Below are positions 27,570-40,994 of a DNA stretch of 64,000 nt, piece after piece (the first letter of the stretch is position 1; every line of letters begins with the position of its first letter). The stretch lies in NCBI GenBank assembly GCA_001898145.1, contig MKSR01000047.1, positions 434,001 through 498,000 on the forward strand, written 5' to 3'. Made by a program: the position numbers and the translations under genes. The DNA is from Dyadobacter sp. 50-39 (GTDB lineage: Bacteria; Bacteroidota; Bacteroidia; Cytophagales; Spirosomataceae). Under the pieces are notes generated by a model. It did no database searches. It was not told where the DNA came from and saw nothing but the letters and a program-made list of their open reading frames with translations.

Positions 27570-30254
27570 TTAGCCCGCGGTGACGTCCAGTTTTGCGATT
27601 ACTTCTTCAAGGTCGATGCCCTCACCCAAAACAGGCTTGAAAAGATCACCCTCGCGCTGAATCCGGTCCATGGCGTTGTAGATGGTGAAATCGCTCAATT
27701 GCAGTCCGGCTTTCACCTCGTCCCAATGCAGCGGCATGGATACAGTAGCCCCCGGTTTTGGCCGTACGGAGTAGGGGGCCGCTAGCGTGGCTTTGGGGCG
27801 GTTCTGCAGGTAGTCGATGTAAAGTTTGCCTTTGCGGTTTTTGGTCATGCGTTCCACACTCGTAAAATCCGGGAGCTGCTGCTGCACCTGGCCCGCCACC
27901 CATTCGGCGAATAGCTGGCACTGATCGTAGGAATACCTGGCGCCGAGCGGAATGTAAATATGCAAGCCGGTCGAGCCGGACGTTTTGCAGTAGGAAGGCA
28001 CATTGAGCGAGTCTAGCAGCGCTTTAATGGCGCGGGCCGTTTCGATGACCTGCTCAAAGGTGTTGGTAGTGTCCGGGTCCAGGTCCAGCAGGCACCAGTC
28101 GGGATTATCGGGCATTTCGATGCGGCTGTTCCAGGGGTTCAGGTCGATGGCGCCCAGGTTGGCCATGTACAGTAACGTCGCCTCATCGTTGCAAAGCATA
28201 AAATTCTTGTTCTCGCCTTCGGAAACATAAGGGGTGGTCTGGATCCATTCGGGAACTTTGCCGGTCACGTCTTTCTGGTAGAAACTCTTGCCTTTGATAC
28301 CGTTTGGAAAGCGGTTGAGTGATAACGGCCGGTTTTCGAGATAGGGCAAAATGAACGGCGCGACCTGGTAGTAATAGTTGATCAGCTCACGCTTCTGTAT
28401 TTTGTCGTCCGGCCAATAGAGTTTACCCAAATTGGAGAATTTTACTTCATGCCCGCTGATCTTTCGAACCTGCGTTTCTTCCTTCGGGTTCAGAAGCGTC
28501 TTCCTCTTCGCTTTTGCAGGCTTTTTAATAATTGCTTGGTTGTCCTCGTGTACTTCCTCAACCACCTCCTCTGTCGATTTTTCCACTTCTCGAACGACCT
28601 CTTTCGCTGATTTGTCCTCCCGCATACCCTCAAATGACGGGTGCCGGAACACGCCGTCGGAGGTGATTTCGGTGAAACTGATTTCGCATACCAGTTCCGG
28701 TTTCAGCCAGGTCGCATTCGCGTGCGGCGGGTTCGGACGGAAACGCGAGGGCTTATTGTAGTCCGGTGTTTCCTTGAACGGGCTTTTTTTGGTAATCAAT
28801 GATTTAAAAAGCGCCATCATCTCTTTCTGCTGCTTCTCTTTGAAACCGGTCCCTACTTTGCCTACATATACCAATTCGCCTTTGTCGTATGCTGCAAGAA
28901 GTAATGCGCTGAAAAGTTTGGAGGAACCTTCATTGAGCGTGTAGCCCGCGATGATTACCTCCTGTCGTTTGTTGATCTTGATTTTCAGCCAGTCGCGGGT
29001 GCGGACGCCCGGATAGTACTCGCTGTCGGATTTTTTTGCGATAATGCCTTCCAACCCCATTTTTTGTGCTGCTTCGAAAAATGCATTGCCGTCGGCCTCG
29101 ACGCTGTAACCGAGTTGTACCGGGCTGTTGTCGTCAACAATGCTTTGCAATACTGCTTTCCGCTCGGATAGCGGCAAATGGATCAGGCTTTTACCTTCGA
29201 GCCAGAGAATGTCGAACGCATAGTAAACCAGCTCCCCGTCCGCCTCACTCCGCCAGTTTTGCAGCGCATTGAAATCGGAAAGGCCGCTCTCGTTAATCAC
29301 GACGATCTCCCCGTCGATCACCGCATTGATCTTCCATTGCTGCAACTGCTGGTAGATTGGATAAAATTTGTCGTTAAATGACTTTTTGTTGCGCGATTGC
29401 AGGCTCACATCGCCATTGCTAAGATATGCCAATGCCCTGTAACCGTCCCATTTAACCTCATATTCCCAGCCCGGATCATCAAATGGCCCGTCCACGAGCG
29501 TAGCGAGCATGGGTTGCAGATCATCCGGCTGTTTTTGCTTTTTGCCCTTTTTCAGAATCGCCGGAACGTTTGCGTCCGGACTTTTTTTTTCAGCCTTAAT
29601 ATCTTCCGCAGGATCTTTCGCCTCGGTTTTGGCATTACTTTCCCAAACCGCATCACCATCCTTTTCAATACCAGCCAATGTCCTTCGAGACACGGCCGAG
29701 CGGTCTTTTTCGGTAATATCGTCTTCGGACGCATACTTGTCGCGGTGCTTAATAAGCAGCCATGCATTTTCCTCCATTCCCTTGGTTTTCACCAAAGCAT
29801 ATTCCCCTTTCACTTTCTTGCCGTTGAGCCGCACTTTCAGCGAGCCCGAATCCAGTTCTTTTAATGCCAGTTTTTCCTGGGCTTTTTTGCCCTTCACCGC
29901 TTTCAACTCACCTTTTTTCACCTCTTCGAGCGGTTCATAGGTGCCGTAATCCCACACCATCACCGTTCCTGCGCCATAGTTTCCTCCCGGAATGATGCCT
30001 TCAAAATCCTTATAGTCGTAAGGGTGGTCCTCCACCATCATGGCCAGTCGCTTCACCGAAGGGTCGGTCGATGGCCCTTTCGGTACGGCCCAGCTTTTGA
30101 GCACCCCGTCCATTTCCAGCCTGAAATCGTAATGCAGGCGGCTGGCGTCGTGTTTCTGGATGACGAAAATGAGCTTGTCTTCATCAGCCTTGCCTCCTTT
30201 CGGCTCGGGTGTTTTGTCGAAGGAACGTTTTTCGTTGTATTTGGAAAGTGTCAT
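27570..30254 (-). CDS. ligD: ATP-dependent DNA ligase D (phosphoesterase, ligase, polymerase)
   Basis: The 894-residue protein holds the three activities of LigD in the Pseudomonas order. The 3'-phosphoesterase is first (about residues 1-180, with HDASRLHYDFRLEMDG and EDHPYDY). The ATP-dependent ligase follows, with the adenylated lysine K268 in YEVKWDGYRA. The primase-polymerase is last (about 610-890, with LLDLDPDT and GSTGLHIYIPLG). It repairs double-strand breaks by non-homologous end joining with Ku. No ku gene is present in the window. A lysine/glutamate-rich linker (about 210-245) separates the first two domains. It converges with the VCBS gene. Confidence 0.95.
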   Translation of the reverse strand: MTLSKYNEKRSFDKTPEPKGGKADEDKLIFVIQKHDASRLHYDFRLEMDGVLKSWAVPKGPSTDPSVKRLAMMVEDHPYDYKDFEGIIPGGNYGAGTVMVWDYGTYEPLEEVKKGELKAVKGKKAQEKLALKELDSGSLKVRLNGKKVKGEYALVKTKGMEENAWLLIKHRDKYASEDDITEKDRSAVSRRTLAGIEKDGDAVWESNAKTEAKDPAEDIKAEKKSPDANVPAILKKGKKQKQPDDLQPMLATLVDGPFDDPGWEYEVKWDGYRALAYLSNGDVSLQSRNKKSFNDKFYPIYQQLQQWKINAVIDGEIVVINESGLSDFNALQNWRSEADGELVYYAFDILWLEGKSLIHLPLSERKAVLQSIVDDNSPVQLGYSVEADGNAFFEAAQKMGLEGIIAKKSDSEYYPGVRTRDWLKIKINKRQEVIIAGYTLNEGSSKLFSALLLAAYDKGELVYVGKVGTGFKEKQQKEMMALFKSLITKKSPFKETPDYNKPSRFRPNPPHANATWLKPELVCEISFTEITSDGVFRHPSFEGMREDKSAKEVVREVEKSTEEVVEEVHEDNQAIIKKPAKAKRKTLLNPKEETQVRKISGHEVKFSNLGKLYWPDDKIQKRELINYYYQVAPFILPYLENRPLSLNRFPNGIKGKSFYQKDVTGKVPEWIQTTPYVSEGENKNFMLCNDEATLLYMANLGAIDLNPWNSRIEMPDNPDWCLLDLDPDTTNTFEQVIETARAIKALLDSLNVPSYCKTSGSTGLHIYIPLGARYSYDQCQLFAEWVAGQVQQQLPDFTSVERMTKNRKGKLYIDYLQNRPKATLAAPYSVRPKPGATVSMPLHWDEVKAGLQLSDFTIYNAMDRIQREGDLFKPVLGEGIDLEEVIAKLDVTAG

Positions 30255-31787: not shown

Positions 31788-33188
31788 ATGAGAGATATCA
31801 GTGTTCAGGATCTACTTGCCATCGAGGTTTTTAAGGATGTGCCTGAAAATCAGCTGCAATGGATGATCGACCGCAGCCAGCATTACGAATTGCCGGAGGG
31901 GGAGCTGATGACCCGGCCCGGCGAGCCGCTTTCGGGTACACATGTCATCTTTTCCGGCCGCATCGAGCTGTACAGGGTCCAGAATAATACCAAACACATT
32001 ATTTCGCAGCTTGGGCCTGGTACGGTCACCGGCCTGCTACCTTTTTCACGTGGGAAAATCGGCATTGCCTATGGTGTATGCCTCGAAGCGAGCCAATTGA
32101 TGACCTTTCCCAAGGAGCTTTTGAAGGAGCTGATCATTTCACATTACGAGCTCACGCAGGCGCTGGTGGTGGTAATGACATCGCGCGTGCGGGAGTTTAC
32201 CGAGCTGGAACAGCAAAATGAGAAGATGATGGCCTTAGGCAAGCTCTCGGCAGGACTGGCGCATGAACTGAATAACCCCGCAGCGGCCATCGTCCGCAGT
32301 TCAGCTTCGCTCAAAGAGCATTTGCTGATGCAACCCGATTCGTTCAAGTCATTGCTCTCCATTCATTTGTCGCATGAGGAAATCGATCTTTTAAATGACA
32401 AAATGGTGAGTTTGCTCAACAACACCAACCGCCCGGTGCTTTCGATGATGAAACGGTCCGAAAAGGAGGACGAGATCCTGGACTGGCTCGACATCAATCA
32501 TATCGCCGGCTGCGAGGACATTGCAGATAACCTGGTCGAGTTTGGGATAGGGGAAGCCGACCTGGAAGAGCTAAAAACCAAGATTAACCACACCGACCTT
32601 TCACCTGTGCTGACCTGGATCAACAACAGCCTGACGACCGAGCGTATGGTAGCAGACATTCAGGAGGCGTCCAAGCGTATTGCCGAACTGGTGGGCTCGG
32701 TAAAAACCTTTACGCATATGGACCGCGGTGGCGAGCGCGAGTACGTGGATATCCACGTCGGCATCCGCAACACGCTCATTATGCTGAATTACAAGCTGAA
32801 AAAGGGAAATATCAAAGTGACCGAATATTTCGACTTCTCCCTGCCGCCGGTCAAGGCAATGGTAGGAGAGCTCAATCAGGTGTGGACGAACCTGATCGAC
32901 AACGCGATCGACGCGCTGGAAGGACGGCCGGATGCGGAACTAACGCTCATTACCCGACGCGATAAGGAATTTGTGAAGGTTACAGTGTGTGACAACGGTA
33001 CCGGCGTGCCCGCCGACATCCGTTCCAGGATCTTTGATCCGTTTTTTACCACCAAATCGGTGGGGAAGGGCACAGGCCTGGGACTTGACGTGGTGAACCG
33101 GATCGTGCGCCAGCATCACGGAACGGTAACCCTGCATTCGGAGCCGGGCCGAACCGAGTTTGTAGTATGTTTCCCGTTTAATGGATAA
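31788..33188 (+). CDS. Histidine kinase with N-terminal cyclic-nucleotide-binding domain
   Basis: The 466-residue cytoplasmic protein starts with a cyclic-nucleotide-binding-type domain (about residues 10-130, [17 protein letters not shown] to [18 protein letters not shown]). A HisKA-like helix with phosphoacceptor H159 in [20 protein letters not shown] follows. A helical middle leads to an HATPase with N-box [15 protein letters not shown] and G-boxes [19 protein letters not shown] and [10 protein letters not shown]. There is no membrane segment, so it senses something in the cytoplasm. The downstream gene encodes a receiver fused to a reductase, its likely partner. Confidence 0.9.
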
Positions 33189-33223
33189 CTTTAATTCTCA
33201 ACCAACTCTTAATAGAAGCTCTC

Positions 33224-34885
33224 ATGGCTTTGCCCATCATATTTTCAATTGACGACGATCCACAGGTGCTTCGGGCAATCAGCCGCGACCTGAAATCCCA
33301 CTACCGCGAAAAATACAGGATATTGAGCACTACCTCCGTGGCCGAAGCGATGGAGAGCCTGCTAGAATTACAGAACCGGGGCGACGAGGTGGCTATGTTC
33401 ATCTCCGACCAGCGGATGCCGGAAATGCAGGGCGTGGACTTTCTGCAAAAGGCGATGAAAATGTTCCCATTTGCGAAAAGGGTGCTGCTAACCGCTTATT
33501 CCGACACGGAGGCGGCTATCAAGGCGATCAATGACGTGCAGCTCGACTATTACCTGATGAAGCCCTGGGACCCGCCGGAAGAAAAGCTGTTTCCGGCCAT
33601 AGACGAGCTTCTTCGTGACTGGCAAGGCAACTACCGCCCCGATTTCAAGGGCATTAAAGTGATAGGTTATCAATTCTCACCGAAAGCGCACGAAATCAAA
33701 GACTTCCTTGCCGGTAATCTGGTGCCTTACCTTTGGCTGGATGCAGAATCGAACGAATCGGGCCGGCAGATTTCTCAGAATAACAACCTTTGTCCGGTCG
33801 ATTTCCCCGTCGTGATCTTTGAAGACGGCTCGCTGTTGAAAACACCTTCGTTGATTGACATTGCAGGGCGCATCGGGCTGAACCCCAAAACGAAGCAGCA
33901 AATTTACGACGTGGTGATCATAGGTGCAGGGCCGGCGGGGCTGGCCGCTTCTGTGTATGGCGCTTCGGAAGGTTTGAGTACTTTGCTGATTGAGCGTAAA
34001 GCACCTGGTGGTCAGGCAGGTACAAGTTCGAGGATCGAAAATTACCTTGGCTTTCCGACTGGTTTGAGCGGCGCCGAACTGACCCGCCGAGCGATCACCC
34101 AGGCGACGCGCTTCGGTACCGAATTTCTCTCACCGCAATTTGTTAAAGAGATCAAGTTAAAGGATAAGTACAAAACCGTTGTACTGGGCGACGGGAACGA
34201 GGTAAATGCCAAGGCGGTAGTGATTACCACCGGCGTGGATTACCGGAAGCTGGAAACGAAGGGAATTGAAGATTTTACCGGTAAGGGCATTTACTACGGC
34301 GCAGCCAGTACCGAAGCCAGTTCTTGTGGAAATAAGGACGTGTATGTGTTAGGTGGTGGCAATTCTGCCGGCCAAGCTGCGATGTATCTTTCCAAGTTTG
34401 CTCGAAATGTGAATATTCTCGTCCGAAAAAACGACCTGACCTCCTCAATGTCATCCTACCTGATCGACCAGATCGCCGGAACGGAGAACATCGCCGTTTT
34501 AGGCTGTACCGAAATCGTCGAAGCGCAAGGGGACGGGCACCTCGAAAATCTGAAACTGATCGATTTGAATACGAATCAGGAGCGGATGGTTCCTGCCGAC
34601 GCATTGTTCATTTTCATTGGCGCCAAACCATACACCGAGTGGGTAGGGCTGGAAATCATCAAGAATAAGAAGGGTTTCATCGAGACCGGGCGGGAAATGA
34701 AGAATTATGACAACTTCAAGGAAATCTGGAAGGCTGACCGCGACCCATACCTGCTTGAAACGAGCTCGCCCGGGATCTTCGCCGCAGGCGATGTGCGTGC
34801 GGGCGCAATGAACCGGGTGACGTCCGCCGTGGGAGAAGGGTCGATGTCGATCAGTTTTGTTCACCAATATTTAAGCGAAGTTTAA
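33224..34885 (+). CDS. Receiver / thioredoxin-like / thioredoxin-reductase-like fusion protein
   Basis: The 553-residue protein has three parts. Residues 1-130 form a receiver with phosphoacceptor D62 (SDQRMPEMQG) and conserved K112. Residues about 140-220 look like a thioredoxin/glutaredoxin fold (KVIGYQFSPKAHEIKDFL to FPVVIFEDGSLLKTPS), but the position of the CxxC has no cysteine. Residues 225-553 form an FAD/NAD(P) oxidoreductase of the thioredoxin reductase type (VVIIGAGPAGLAAS, VLGGGNSAGQAA, FAAGDVRAGAMNRVTSAVGEG). The usual redox-active CxxC is replaced by EASSC, with a single cysteine C367. Related reductases carry a cyclic-nucleotide domain instead of a receiver. Phosphorylation by the upstream kinase may control the reductase. 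Confidence 0.9.
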   Translation: MALPIIFSIDDDPQVLRAISRDLKSHYREKYRILSTTSVAEAMESLLELQNRGDEVAMFISDQRMPEMQGVDFLQKAMKMFPFAKRVLLTAYSDTEAAIKAINDVQLDYYLMKPWDPPEEKLFPAIDELLRDWQGNYRPDFKGIKVIGYQFSPKAHEIKDFLAGNLVPYLWLDAESNESGRQISQNNNLCPVDFPVVIFEDGSLLKTPSLIDIAGRIGLNPKTKQQIYDVVIIGAGPAGLAASVYGASEGLSTLLIERKAPGGQAGTSSRIENYLGFPTGLSGAELTRRAITQATRFGTEFLSPQFVKEIKLKDKYKTVVLGDGNEVNAKAVVITTGVDYRKLETKGIEDFTGKGIYYGAASTEASSCGNKDVYVLGGGNSAGQAAMYLSKFARNVNILVRKNDLTSSMSSYLIDQIAGTENIAVLGCTEIVEAQGDGHLENLKLIDLNTNQERMVPADALFIFIGAKPYTEWVGLEIIKNKKGFIETGREMKNYDNFKEIWKADRDPYLLETSSPGIFAAGDVRAGAMNRVTSAVGEGSMSISFVHQYLSEV

Positions 34886-34887
34886 AA

Positions 34888-35154
34888 ATGGGAGAGATTT
34901 GTAATCATATCGAAGCTATTCAGCAGATTAAAGTGGCCAATGAACTGGTTTGCGAAGAATGCGTGAAAGTCGATGGCCGTTGGGTGCATTTGCGCACCTG
35001 CCAGACCTGTGGCGCCACACTCTGCTGTGATAGCTCGCCTGCCAAGCACATGACCAGGCACTTCCATCACACCGGCCACCCGGTTGCTTCTTCCGCAGAG
35101 CCCGGAGAGCAATGGTTGTGGTGTTATGCCGACGAAGTGTTTGTAGAGTATTGA
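34888..35154 (+). CDS. UBP-type zinc-finger protein (88 aa)
   Basis: The 88-residue protein is made almost wholly of a UBP-type zinc finger: CNH near residue 5, CEEC (23-26), RTCQTCGATLCC and HMTRHFHHTGHPV. The Cys and His spacing matches the family that in eukaryotes binds ubiquitin C-termini. In bacteria the ligand is unknown, although bacterial UBP fingers are found near reductases. The gene starts 2 bases after the reductase stop and ends 18 bases before the AraC gene, so it is the last gene of the redox operon. Confidence 0.88.
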   Translation: MGEICNHIEAIQQIKVANELVCEECVKVDGRWVHLRTCQTCGATLCCDSSPAKHMTRHFHHTGHPVASSAEPGEQWLWCYADEVFVEY

Positions 35155-35172: not shown

Positions 35173-36081
35173 ATGAAGAAGGTCGCAACGATTGAGCAGT
35201 TTTACAAGGACATTTCGATGCTGATTCCAGAGCCTGTTCAAAAGGAGGTTGGGCATTTTAATATTTTCAGGACGGACGAGCTTTACCGTGTAGCTGCCAA
35301 AAACCGCGTGATGCCCTATAATCGGAGGGCTTACTACAAAATAAGCCTGATTATGGGCCGCAACAGGGCGGAGTACGCGGACAAAGTGATTAATATTGAG
35401 CACAATGCATTGCTTTTTGCCACGCCGCTGATCCCGTATAACTATGTGCCGCTGGATGAAAACCAGTCCGGCTTCTTTTGTATTTTCTCAGAAGATTTTC
35501 TCACGCAGGACAATAGCGGCGTTCGTCTGCGGGAACTGCCCGTGTATAAGCCGGGTGGAAATCCGGTCTTTTTCCTGAATGATGAGCAGCTCCATGACAT
35601 TAAGTACATTTTCGGCAAGATGTTCCGGGAAATCGAGTCTGACTATGCATTTAAATATGATCTGCTGCGCAATTATGTGATCGAGCTTATCCATTTCGGC
35701 CAGAAATTGCAGCCTGCTACATCACTATTCACCGAAACCAATGCCTACAAGCGCGTTTCATCGCTTTTCATCGAGCTGCTTGAACGCCAGTTTCCGGTGG
35801 AGCCGCCGCACCAGAAGCTTGGTCTGCGCTCCGCGAAAGACTACGCCGATCAGCTCTCGATTCACGTCAACTATCTCAACAAAGTTTTGAAGGAAATTAC
35901 CGGTAAGACCACCACCGAACTGATTACCGACCGCATTATCAAGGAATCCAAAATACTCTTGAAGCATACTGACTGGAATGTTGCAGAGATTGCATACAGT
36001 CTGGGCTTTGAGGAACCTTCACATTTCAATAACGTTTTCAAGAAGCATACAGCGCTTAGCCCTCGCGCTTTCAGGTCGTAG
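35173..36081 (+). CDS. AraC family transcriptional regulator
   Basis: The 302-residue protein has an N-terminal cupin-like sensing part and a C-terminal double helix-turn-helix (KDYADQLSIHVNYLNKVLKEITGKTT, then NVAEIAYSLGFEEPSHFNNVFKKHTALSPRAF). This is the usual AraC layout. The SDR gene follows 92 bases later on the same strand with its own -7 element, and AraC/SDR pairs of this kind are common in Bacteroidota, so the SDR is the likely target. The ligand is unknown. Confidence 0.9.
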   Translation: MKKVATIEQFYKDISMLIPEPVQKEVGHFNIFRTDELYRVAAKNRVMPYNRRAYYKISLIMGRNRAEYADKVINIEHNALLFATPLIPYNYVPLDENQSGFFCIFSEDFLTQDNSGVRLRELPVYKPGGNPVFFLNDEQLHDIKYIFGKMFREIESDYAFKYDLLRNYVIELIHFGQKLQPATSLFTETNAYKRVSSLFIELLERQFPVEPPHQKLGLRSAKDYADQLSIHVNYLNKVLKEITGKTTTELITDRIIKESKILLKHTDWNVAEIAYSLGFEEPSHFNNVFKKHTALSPRAFRS

Positions 36082-37648: not shown

Positions 37649-37837
37649 GACTGGATTTGTTTTCATGGCTGATTGTGATTCTGATGCAAAAGTACGGGCA
37701 GGTTAGCATGCTCCGCCTACGCCGAACGGATCGAAAACTACGCAATACGGATTTTGGGGCTTACGCGGGAGATTGGTATTGGGAGCATTTATTACGTTAT
37801 TTGCAACCGGATTTCAGTCATTAATTCTGCCCGGGCA

Positions 37838-38263
37838 ATGTCAATCAGAGGACCCATTATTTCGATCGAGGACGACGCGGATGATCAGTTTTTAATCAAG
37901 AGTGTCGTTGAGGAGCTTGACATACCCAACGAGCTATTATTTTTCAACAATGGTGTCGAAGCGCTGCTTTACCTGGAAACCACACGTGAGCAGCCATTTT
38001 TGATCGTTTGCGATATCAACATGCCGGTGATGAATGGCTTGGAGTTGCGCGAGCGAATCGAGCGGAACGAGTACCTGCGGCAAAAATCAATCCCGTTCGT
38101 ATTTCTGAGCACCGCCGACAATCCCCTGGTGATCCAGACAGCCTACCAAACGACAATTCAGGGTTTTTTTAAAAAAGAAAACAGCTTCGACGAATTTAAA
38201 GCGCGGCTCAAGGTGATGTACGACTACTGGTCGTATTGCCTGCATCCCAACCAGTATCACTGA
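37838..38263 (+). CDS. Single-domain response regulator (receiver)
   Basis: The 141-residue protein is a lone receiver domain: acidic pair in SIEDDADDQ, phosphoacceptor in CDINMPVMNG, switch T/S in FLSTAD and the lysine in FKKENS. It has no output domain and probably acts as a phosphorelay intermediate or a diffusible regulator. Receivers with the VISIEDD start and the QTAYQTTIQGFFKK end are frequent in Bacteroidota, next to hybrid kinases. An upstream in-frame ATG (37754) would add a poor extension. The NtrC-like gene starts 2 bases after its stop. Confidence 0.88.
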   Translation: MSIRGPIISIEDDADDQFLIKSVVEELDIPNELLFFNNGVEALLYLETTREQPFLIVCDINMPVMNGLELRERIERNEYLRQKSIPFVFLSTADNPLVIQTAYQTTIQGFFKKENSFDEFKARLKVMYDYWSYCLHPNQYH

Positions 38264-38265
38264 GA

Positions 38266-39603
38266 ATGAAAAAAATACTGATCGTCGACGACGAGGAAAA
38301 GCTCCGTGGCTTGATGGGCCGGGTAATCAAGCTGGAAGGCTTTGAGGTAATCGAGGCGGGCGATATTAAAAGCGCGTGGAAAAAGCTGGACCAGGCCGAT
38401 GTTGATGTGGTGCTGTGCGACGTAAAATTGCCGGATGGTAATGGCGTAGCGTTTTCGAAGGAACTGAAAGAAAAGTATCCGCTTCCGGAAGTGATCTTGC
38501 TCACCGCCTATGGCAATATCGCAGATGGCGTGCAGGCGATCAAGAACGGAGCATTTGACTATATCACCAAAGGCGACGACAACAACAGGATTATTCCGCT
38601 GCTTTACAAGGCACTTGAGAAGAGCGAACTAAACCGCCGGGTTATCAGCTTGGAAAAACAATTGGGCGAAAGGCGGTCTTTTGATGTGATCATCGGCAAA
38701 TCCAGAAACCTGCTAGCCTGTATTGACCTGGCGCGCCGTGTTGCGCCGACTGATACGACGGTTCTTCTGCTGGGAGAAACAGGCACAGGGAAGGAAGTGT
38801 TTGCGCAATCCATTCACCAGGCAAGTAACAGGGCCAAAAAGTCTTTTGTAGCAGTCAACTGCTCGGCCTTCGGGAAAGAGCTGCTCGAAAGTGAGATGTT
38901 CGGTCATAAGGCAGGAGCTTTTACCGGTGCGGTGCGCGATAAAAAGGGGCTTTTCGAAGAGGCAAATAACGGGACTATTTTCCTGGATGAAATCGGAGAG
39001 CTTGCGCCTGAATTGCAGGCGAAACTGCTGCGGGTGCTCGAATCGGGTGAATTTATCAAAATAGGGGAAACACATCCGACAAAAGTCAATGTGCGCGTGA
39101 TCGCCGCTACGCACAGGGATTTACCTAAACAGATCGAAGCAGGCGAGTTCCGGAGCGATCTGTTTTACAGGCTTTCGGTTTTCCAGATTACATTACCGGC
39201 ATTACGGGAGCGTGTGGCCGATATCGGACCGCTCGCCAAGAGTTTCGCCGCACAGTTTGCTTTGAAAACCAACAAAAAAATCATCGCATTAGCGCCGGAG
39301 TTCGTCGCCGCATTGGAAACGAATCCATGGCACGGTAACATCCGTGAGCTCAAGAACGTCATCGAGAGAAGCGTGATCCTCACCGACGGTCCAGTCCTGA
39401 ACGTTGAGAGTCTTCCGTTCGAAATGCAGCATCCCAGGCCGCAAGGGGGTAAAAATCTGTCTGCATTTTCCCTGGACAGTGCTGAAAAGCTGCACTTGCA
39501 GAAAGTACTGAATTATACCAACGGCAACAAAGCAGAAGCTGCGCGGCTGTTGGAAATAGGCATTGCCACCCTCTACCGCAAGATCGACGAGTACAAGCTC
39601 TAA
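38266..39603 (+). CDS. NtrC-type sigma-54-dependent response regulator
   Basis: The 445-residue protein has a receiver (about residues 1-115, DD pair in LIVDDEEKL and phospho-Asp in LCDVKLPDGNG). A sigma-54 AAA+ domain follows, with Walker A GETGTGKE, the GAFTGA loop that contacts sigma-54 (HKAGAFTGAVRD) and Walker B TIFLDEIGEL. A Fis-type helix-turn-helix sits at the end (NGNKAEAARLLEIGIATLYRKIDEYKL). The cognate kinase is probably the HAMP kinase encoded 8 bases downstream. It should activate sigma-54 promoters. I saw no strong -24/-12 promoter in the spacers nearby. Confidence 0.95.
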   Translation: MKKILIVDDEEKLRGLMGRVIKLEGFEVIEAGDIKSAWKKLDQADVDVVLCDVKLPDGNGVAFSKELKEKYPLPEVILLTAYGNIADGVQAIKNGAFDYITKGDDNNRIIPLLYKALEKSELNRRVISLEKQLGERRSFDVIIGKSRNLLACIDLARRVAPTDTTVLLLGETGTGKEVFAQSIHQASNRAKKSFVAVNCSAFGKELLESEMFGHKAGAFTGAVRDKKGLFEEANNGTIFLDEIGELAPELQAKLLRVLESGEFIKIGETHPTKVNVRVIAATHRDLPKQIEAGEFRSDLFYRLSVFQITLPALRERVADIGPLAKSFAAQFALKTNKKIIALAPEFVAALETNPWHGNIRELKNVIERSVILTDGPVLNVESLPFEMQHPRPQGGKNLSAFSLDSAEKLHLQKVLNYTNGNKAEAARLLEIGIATLYRKIDEYKL

Positions 39604-39611
39604 GCATTGAA

Positions 39612-40994
39612 ATGAAGATCAAAACCAAACTAAGGCTCGGTATCGGCCTGCTTTTCGCCATGATTACGGTGTTGGCGGTGGTGGGGATCCGGCAGGTGAG
39701 CCTGCTCTCGGCAGATTCGCGGAACATCGTTATCGCCAATCACAATTCCTTAGAATATACACGCCAGATGCTTGCAGCACTCGACGAGCTGGAAGTGCAC
39801 GCGGGTGCATTGGATGTATTTAAAAGGAACCTGGAAGCGCAGCAGGGAAATATCACCGAGGAAGGTGAGAAGGACCTCACAATGCAATTGACCAAACATT
39901 TCGGGCGGCTGAAATTAAATGTCCGAGACAAGGAGGCAGCGGCTCTCATCCGCGTGAATGTGCTTGAAATTATGCGCATTAACCTTGCAGCGATTAACCG
40001 GAAGAGTCACATTGCCGGTCAGACGGCCAAGAGCTCGATGGTGTGGATCGGAATTACCGGCACGCTGTGCTTTATCATTGCGTTCACCCTGTTTGTAAAC
40101 CTGCCGGGAAATATTGCCAATCCGATCCGTGAGCTGACCCGGAGTATCCGCCAGATCGCTAACCAGAACTACAAGGAACGCGTACATTTTGGTAGCCGAG
40201 ATGAATTTGGAGAGCTTGCAAGCTCGTTCAACATCATGGCAGGGAAGCTGGAAGAATATGACAACAGTAATCTGGCCAAATTAATGATCGAGAAGAAGCG
40301 GGTGGAGGAACTGGACATTGCTAAAACCAATTTCATCGCCAATGTCTCACATGAATTCAAGACGCCTATTGCGTCTATCAAAATCACCCTTGATCTGCTC
40401 GGTGACGAACGGATTGGCAATACCAATGAGGAACAGCGCAGCCTTTTTGAGAGTATCCGGCAAGATGCCGACCGGCTTTTGAAGATCACCAGCGAACTGC
40501 TCAATATTACACAGGTAGAAAGCGGTAAAATACAACTGAACATAGCTGCAACGACACCTGAGGAAATTGTACGGTATGCGATGGCAGCGATCGAATCCCA
40601 GGCTGAAAGCCGCAATATCAATGTTGTGGTAGAAGACAACGGCGTGCGGTCGGACGTGCTGGTTGACTCGGAAAAGACCGCGTGGGTGCTTACCAACCTG
40701 GTTTCCAATGCCGTCCGCTATTCCGACGACCATTCCACCGTCCGTATTGCCCTTCACGAGGATGCAGCGGCTGTCTATATAGCGGTTGCAGATAGCGGGC
40801 AGGGCATTTCAGCGGAATACAAGGACAAAATCTTCGACCGCTACTTCCGTGTGCCCGGCTCCGCCAAAGAAGGTACCGGGCTGGGCCTTGCGATCAGCCG
40901 TGAATTTATCGAGGCACAGGACGGAACGCTCACTGTGCAAAGCGAACTCGGAACTGGCAGTACTTTTACGATCGCATTGAAAAAGCACGTATGA
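39612..40994 (+). CDS. Membrane histidine kinase with HAMP domain
   Basis: The 460-residue protein has two membrane helices (about residues 8-28 and 136-160) around a short periplasmic sensing part. A HAMP domain (SIRQIANQNYKERVHFGSRDEFGELASSFNIMA) is followed by HisKA with the phosphoacceptor in NVSHEFKTPIASIKI and HATPase motifs VLTNLVSNAVRYS, DSGQGISAEYKDKIFDRYF and GTGLGLAISREF. It is the second gene of a two-component pair with the NtrC-like regulator, 8 bases apart. The signal is unknown. Confidence 0.93.
   Translation: MKIKTKLRLGIGLLFAMITVLAVVGIRQVSLLSADSRNIVIANHNSLEYTRQMLAALDELEVHAGALDVFKRNLEAQQGNITEEGEKDLTMQLTKHFGRLKLNVRDKEAAALIRVNVLEIMRINLAAINRKSHIAGQTAKSSMVWIGITGTLCFIIAFTLFVNLPGNIANPIRELTRSIRQIANQNYKERVHFGSRDEFGELASSFNIMAGKLEEYDNSNLAKLMIEKKRVEELDIAKTNFIANVSHEFKTPIASIKITLDLLGDERIGNTNEEQRSLFESIRQDADRLLKITSELLNITQVESGKIQLNIAATTPEEIVRYAMAAIESQAESRNINVVVEDNGVRSDVLVDSEKTAWVLTNLVSNAVRYSDDHSTVRIALHEDAAAVYIAVADSGQGISAEYKDKIFDRYFRVPGSAKEGTGLGLAISREFIEAQDGTLTVQSELGTGSTFTIALKKHV

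Follow-up and report, generated by a model that had tools for sequence, protein, structure and literature searches.

The locus described here raises the question of what a soluble histidine kinase, a receiver-bearing flavoprotein and a small zinc finger protein do together. It lies in a 64,000-nucleotide stretch of contig MKSR01000047.1 of Dyadobacter sp. 50-39 (positions 434,001 to 498,000; hereafter the window, in whose coordinates all positions are given), the nearest named relative of the organism being Dyadobacter frigoris. Three open reading frames (ORFs), all on the forward strand, encode the histidine kinase (HK; 31788-33188, 466 residues), a protein that joins a receiver to a flavoprotein resembling thioredoxin reductase, TrxR (RT; 33224-34885, 553 residues), and a UBP-type zinc finger protein (UBP; 34888-35154, 88 residues). 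The intergenic gaps are 35 bases between HK and RT and 2 bases between RT and UBP. The first-pass annotation of this DNA had reported this arrangement, the domains of the three proteins and the positions of H159 in HK and D62 in RT, all of which were confirmed by the ORF coordinates, Pfam matches and a check of the two residues.

The most economical reading of these sequences is a phosphorelay from HK onto RT, a predicted flavoprotein, because the trio is conserved together and the kinase accompanies an intact receiver. We propose a single cytosolic module in which the phosphorelay acts on a thiol-free NAD(P)H-FAD protein, UBP serves as a coupling partner and an antiporter is the target in some lineages, a proposal to which we give an even chance. 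HK would sense a cue through its CRP-like domain and phosphorylate D62 in the receiver of RT, as their gene association and joint loss suggest. Phosphorylation would then alter the NAD(P)H-FAD state or the conformation of RT, and UBP, as a protein partner of HK and RT, may pass this state on, in keeping with its adjacency and with one fusion of HK to UBP. In several other lineages the apparent target is a monovalent-cation/proton antiporter, since UBP is fused to the antiporter C terminus or encoded beside it. Its mode of action would then resemble that of the Kef antiporter and its flavoprotein subunit KefF, with a phosphorelay as an additional layer.

The conservation of the genes was assessed in three samples. 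Set A, drawn from 296 genomes belonging to the window's phylum, comprises 46 RT matches at E ≤ 1e-60, which come from 45 of these genomes; set B comprises the best 80 of at least 147 RT relatives in named genomes from many phyla; and an unselected sample of 149 Actinomycetota genomes yielded 40 UBP matches in 31 of them, 30 of these UBP loci being read. Linkage was defined as a gene lying within 3 kb of RT, and since the hidden Markov model (HMM) profiles for the HK, UBP and RT linkage counts were built on set A, set B provides the cleaner count. RT carries a receiver in 41 loci of set A (window included) and 45 of set B, and lacks one in 5 and 35, respectively. HK is linked to receiver-bearing RT in 38 of 41 set A loci (37 on the same strand) and in 41 of 45 set B loci, but to none of the receiver-less RTs (0/5 and 0/35). 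The window genome itself has one zf-UBP match and one RT at E ≤ 1e-60. The fusion of a receiver to an FAD reductase had been called rare, a view at odds with its 41 loci in the 296 phylum genomes and its presence in many phyla; the RT family was found in Bacteroidota, Actinomycetota, Cyanobacteriota, Acidobacteriota, Gemmatimonadota, Pseudomonadota and Deinococcota.

The three genes occur together in several orders. HK-RT-UBP is found in the window and in five other loci (L032, L035, L085, L087, L089), the RT/UBP spacing of 2 bases in the window being 0 in L085. UBP-HK-RT occurs in 14 loci, every one from family group f23, and RT-HK-UBP in 11 set B loci and on a Streptomyces fungicidicus plasmid. 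In further loci UBP is fused to a Kef-type antiporter, in the order Kef::UBP-HK-RT (L045) or RT-Kef::UBP-HK (L046, L048), and in one it is fused to the kinase (RT-HK::UBP, L225). When the window ORFs of at least 85 residues between 22 and 44 kb were compared with 17.7-kb loci of D. frigoris and two Mucilaginibacter, the trio was held in common and the flanks were not. Other matches in these loci were confined to antisense ORFs and weak hits to other two-component genes (27-37% identity across 54-142 residues), of which one, in L089, falls outside the trio. The conservation of the trio among relatives, the lack of which had been named as a refutation, is thus borne out by the linkage counts and by a shared trio in unshared surroundings. 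The cyanobacterium Aliterella has HK and UBP at most 2 kb apart (L191), away from its RT locus (L093).

The receiver domain of RT (residues 6-119, 33239-33580; PF00072, E 5e-13) has the intact active site of a response regulator, with D10, D11, D12, D62, T90 and K113. D62, the predicted phospho-Asp (codon 33407-33409), is invariant in the 13-row alignment A1. Among 92 receiver or receiver-like N-termini that were examined, 84 have an intact active site and 8 are degenerate; HK is nearby in 79 of the 84 and in none of the 8 (naive Fisher p 1.4e-8). This trend is suggestive, but it is no proof of a phosphorelay. The degenerate receivers with no kinase nearby belong to the RT relatives in L133, L138, L139, L142, L143, L149, L121 and L127.

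The remainder of RT is a flavoprotein that has lost the thiols of its relatives. Residues 228-539 (33905-34840) form an FAD/NAD(P)-binding TrxR-like fold (Pyr_redox_2, E 8e-35) with both the FAD and NAD(P) sites present; the FAD motif is retained, and R401 is found in 121 of the 126 RTs compared (window RT included). The redox-active CxxC of the TrxR NADPH domain is absent from all 126, its place in the window RT being taken by GAAS (residues 359-362, 34298-34309), and the TIGR01292 score of 233.5 bits falls short of the cut-off of 343.45. The annotated fusion of a receiver to a thioredoxin-reductase-like fold thus stands, but the catalytic thiols are missing, and the idea that the phosphorelay switches a thioredoxin-type reductase finds no support. 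A middle domain that was missing from the earlier list (residues 144-216, 33653-33871) has predicted secondary structure in the order beta-alpha-beta-alpha-beta-beta-alpha, as in glutaredoxin, and is here termed pseudo-glutaredoxin: the catalytic Cys position, where helix 1 begins, is Ser in 105 of 126 proteins (S152 in the window) and Cys in only 4. The assignment of this domain rests on predicted secondary structure because a structure search with the whole RT model (AlphaFold2, mean pLDDT 87.6) covered mainly residues 223-553; a weak glutaredoxin match (PF00462) was seen in 2 of 34 relatives and, below cut-off, in the RT of L225. RT thus resembles thioredoxin reductase and AhpF in its FAD/NAD(P) fold, with about 30% identity, and differs from them in the missing CxxC, the Ser at the glutaredoxin-like site and the additional receiver. 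AhpF, too, has thioredoxin-fold domains ahead of its reductase.

HK has the sequence features of a two-component kinase, namely a HATPase_c domain (residues 362-464, 32871-33179; E 6e-24) and a predicted phospho-His, H159, in the motif HELNNP (codon 32262-32264), which is invariant in 39 of 39 set A kinases. The HisKA match is weak and below cut-off (23 versus 26.9 bits), and the absence of any transmembrane-like stretch (maximum KD19 1.16) marks the protein as soluble. Pfam scanning of 24 HKs, selected from set B together with the window HK, matched HATPase_c in all 24 and the CRP-like cNMP_binding domain in 23; the latter lies above cut-off in the window HK (residues 35-117, 31890-32138; PF00027, E 2.8e-9), giving that kinase the CRP-like domain of cyclic nucleotide-binding proteins. 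The canonical phosphate-binding cassette of such proteins is GE...R, with its Glu and Arg. By eye, the window HK has GxLPFSR at that position, which makes a cyclic-nucleotide ligand doubtful for this kinase; on the same visual comparison cyclic AMP (cAMP) was set aside and is probably not its ligand. The set A kinases share GxLPxSR in place of the usual cassette, G82, L84, P85, S87 and R88 each being found in 38 of 39.

In receiver-less RTs the domain is mostly carried by the enzyme: of 34 scanned (out of the 35 receiver-less set B loci), 26 have it, and F.GE is seen in 19 of the 34 N-termini. We read this as the same type of input wired either directly to the enzyme or through a kinase. In the RT tree (103 of the 126 proteins, 23 having been dropped by a hand list, mostly as near-duplicates) the two architectures form largely separate clades, and they therefore reflect an old split rather than repeated swapping. 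On the same tree L136, named Flavobacteriaceae, groups with f7.

The link between UBP and antiporters comes from other lineages. In the window's phylum, UBP is fused C-terminally to a protein with Pfam Na_H_Exchanger and TrkA_N domains in four loci (L045, L046, L048, L058), and an NCBIfam scan of the antiporters of L079 and L046 ranked KefC first. In f23, UBP stands in a row with an Na_H_Exchanger and TrkA_N protein, often together with a VOC protein, an esterase and a DsbA-type protein; one such row (L079, 304-7598) has seven genes, for a VOC protein, an esterase, a Kef-type antiporter, a DsbA-type protein, UBP, HK and RT. Three genomes of the phylum have UBP above the cut-off but no RT (G042, G085, G286), and in these UBP is encoded beside or fused to a member of the same antiporter family. 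In Actinomycetota, Pfam confirmed three UBP-exchanger fusions (L175, L178 and L184, the last also matching the Kef profile), and an HMM search of the unselected sample added three UBP-antiporter fusions (L198, L217, L220). Where these Actinomycetota fusions are called CPA1 or CPA2, the label is our own, the Pfam match there being Na_H_Exchanger. Of the 30 Actinomycetota UBP loci read, 3 were exchanger fusions, 2 had an exchanger as opposite-strand neighbour, 5 had HK as neighbour or fusion partner and 2 adjoined RT. Among the neighbours of the 20 loci classed as "other", one cluster recurred, in two loci only (L207, L223), in each of which the opposite strand also bears a CPA1-type ORF. The role of adaptor suggested for the finger by the first-pass annotation gains support from the HK::UBP fusion and from these antiporter fusions.

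Several observations weigh against the proposed module, most of all in the window organism. No antiporter is encoded beside the window genes, and the antiporter step is the weakest one for this organism, an extrapolation, because its Kef-type matches are distant (25-34%) and located on another contig. The UBP-antiporter links of set A come only from f23, f29 and f41, three family groups outside the window's class, and mostly from f23; in the window's own class set A has none, UBP standing by RT or alone. Of six long UBP ORFs scanned in Actinomycetota, three (L180, L182, L186) matched zf-UBP alone, and in 18 of the 30 loci read HK, RT and antiporters were all missing from the surrounding 1.5 kb or so. 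No UBP lies within 3 kb in 52 of the 86 receiver-RT loci. The tree holds only three independent contrasts between receiver integrity and HK, all in the expected direction (p 0.25), and five intact receivers (L037, L047, L077, L093, L124) have no HK within 3 kb, although in L047 HK is found at 3.9 kb and a contig end truncates the L124 locus. The Actinomycetota HKs depart from the set A motif, and a few of them (L108, L225) retain a GE..R-like cassette, so that the exclusion of cAMP does not hold for the family as a whole. An unpaired Cys, C368, is present in 88 of the 126 RTs. Finally, terminator-like sites in and around the genes number 10 against 5.3 expected (standard deviation 2.3; consensus matches only), and four of these, weak hairpins, lie on the forward strand within HK and RT (33028-34852). 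A promoter scan gave nothing above shuffled sequences (3 found, 4.1 expected).

The best-surviving alternative has RT acting independently as an enzyme, such as a quinone or oxygen reductase that uses NAD(P)H, whose activity is switched by the phosphorelay; UBP would then be a scaffold for HK and RT, with no antiporter involved in the window organism. The retained FAD motif and R401 are consistent with catalysis, and the RT model is near a TrxR structure titled as the FR conformation (5mh4, root-mean-square deviation 2.0 Å), presumably the form in which the nicotinamide reaches the flavin, and far from two titled FO (5mjk, 8.0 Å; 5w4c, 5.8 Å). The fusion of HK to UBP beside RT suits a scaffold, as does the lack of antiporters around the window genes and, in set A loci of the window's class, next to UBP. 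This alternative leaves unexplained both the UBP-antiporter fusions and the genomes without RT in which UBP lies beside an antiporter (L059, L060), and we consider it a serious contender that is nonetheless unlikely. In the more specific form of the proposed module, RT would be an NAD(P)H/flavin sensor rather than an enzyme, set by the phosphorelay, and UBP would carry its state to cation/proton antiporters, in a widespread system not described before; we put this form forward tentatively, as a rather unlikely possibility.

HK and RT could also be an ordinary two-component pair, with UBP a passenger of the same stress islands that has no mechanistic link to them. UBP is linked to receiver-bearing RT in only 20 of 41 set A loci and 14 of 45 set B loci (receiver-less RT, 2 of 5 and 6 of 35), and many UBPs are located elsewhere. 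Within genomes, UBP is found anywhere in 35 of 44 named receiver-RT genomes and 24 of 35 named receiver-less RT genomes, compared with backgrounds of 31 of 149 Actinomycetota genomes and 33 of the 296 phylum genomes (two of the 33 below the family cut-off). Both UBP and RT are present in 28 of these 296 genomes, against an expectation of 5.0. This excess, the HK::UBP fusion, the tight spacing, the several gene orders across distant phyla and the trio in unshared flanks make a mere passenger improbable. A stress island with a UBP/RT pair is seen on plasmid pDK2 of Rhodococcus sp. DK17 (L165, 1-8402), where dnaK, grpE, a J protein gene, cbpM, clpB, trxA, UBP, an FAD oxidoreductase and a DUF1931 gene follow in a row. 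The metagenome-assembled Pseudonocardia genome of L103 (G313) contains eight zf-UBP matches.

It is very improbable that RT is a true thiol reductase which borrows cysteines from UBP or thioredoxin and forms a thioredoxin system under phosphorylation control. Its TrxR fold, thioredoxin- or DsbA-type genes close by in some loci (L079, L165) and C368 would speak for such a role. They are set against the loss of CxxC in all 126 RTs and the prevalent Ser at the glutaredoxin-like site, and C368 is unpaired and replaced by Phe in 19 of 126 RTs. A working thioredoxin reductase was rejected on the absence of CxxC.

UBP itself has the ZnF-UBP fold with its Cys/His zinc ligands (zf-UBP, E 5e-11; AlphaFold2 model with mean pLDDT 90), and all 26 stand-alone fingers of set A share the same residues in the Cys/His columns; several Actinomycetota fingers lack C5, H7 and C79. 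In HDAC6 the Arg of the motif CGRY holds the ubiquitin C-terminal tail. That UBP reads a ubiquitin-like tail in the manner of eukaryotic ZnF-UBP domains is highly unlikely, as the aligned position is Ser in 24 and Gln in 2 of the 26 fingers and the closest solved relative, RPA1320 of R. palustris (PDB 2ida), is bacterial; a ubiquitin-type reading is therefore not upheld. R36 of UBP could stand in for this Arg. In comparison with RPA1320 and the HDAC6 and USP ZnF-UBP domains, the window-type fingers do not conserve the position of the HDAC6 Arg, and they have signalling proteins and antiporters as neighbours and fusion partners. No obvious shared C-terminal motif that a finger might read was found across the nine RT tails compared.

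Parts of this picture are already known. Proteins that, like RT, combine a receiver and a TrxR-fold domain were noted earlier in archaeal metagenomes (PMC5847659), and the passages of that paper which name the architecture mention no kinase partner, finger or missing thiols. The product named "cyclic nucleotide-binding domain-containing thioredoxin-disulfide reductase" in plasmid records has the same oxidoreductase part as RT (43-46% identity in named rows). It differs from the window RT in bearing the cyclic nucleotide-binding domain on the enzyme, in having no receiver and in having HK nearby in 0 of 35 loci; UBP is linked to it in 6 of these 35 receiver-less set B loci, and it lies beside UBP on Rhodococcus and Agrobacterium plasmids. 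Bacterial UBP fingers in annotated plasmid rows bear a domain name or "hypothetical protein" only.

The Kef system offers a further parallel, in that passages of PMC10224563 describe KefF, a flavoprotein oxidoreductase subunit, as required for full activation of Kef, with zinc ions at the KefC-KefF interface. As with KefF or KefG, a flavoprotein would partner an antiporter. KefF is, however, a small FMN quinone reductase of flavodoxin-like type, whereas RT is an FAD-type protein of TrxR fold with a receiver, accompanied by a UBP that is fused to the antiporter in some lineages; the likeness is one of working only. An allicin-resistance region of Pseudomonas likewise combines kefC, kefF, dsbA and trx (PMC7119367), which agrees with an electrophile or thiol-stress setting for the f23 gene row. 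For the module as a whole, no description was found in the open-licence literature as covered by titles and abstract openings, subscription papers and preprints lying outside this search; what is known, as far as these sources extend, is the receiver-TrxR fusion and the database names of the finger and of the cyclic nucleotide-binding reductase.

Of the genes adjoining the trio, the AraC gene downstream (35173-36081) and a 130-residue ORF upstream were both rejected as module parts, neither having a match in L085, L087 or L089. Elsewhere in the window, a second signalling cluster (37754-40994) reads by eye as consecutive genes for a stand-alone receiver, a response regulator of NtrC type and a HAMP-type kinase, and an 894-residue LigD-like protein, encoded on the reverse strand (27570-30254), has ligase, phosphoesterase and polymerase parts, again by eye, as in the bacterial end-joining enzyme.

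RT family members score as, or are named, thioredoxin reductases in some records, yet none of the 126 has the thiol site. For the bacterial UBP fingers, the module offers concrete candidate partners, namely HK and RT on the one hand and antiporters on the other. If the proposal is true, this two-component system would act through redox or ion control and not through gene expression, and it would suggest that bacterial ZnF-UBP domains have a role unrelated to ubiquitin. Should RT act as a sensor whose state is carried by UBP to the antiporters, cytoplasmic pH and potassium would come under direct two-component control with no transcriptional step.

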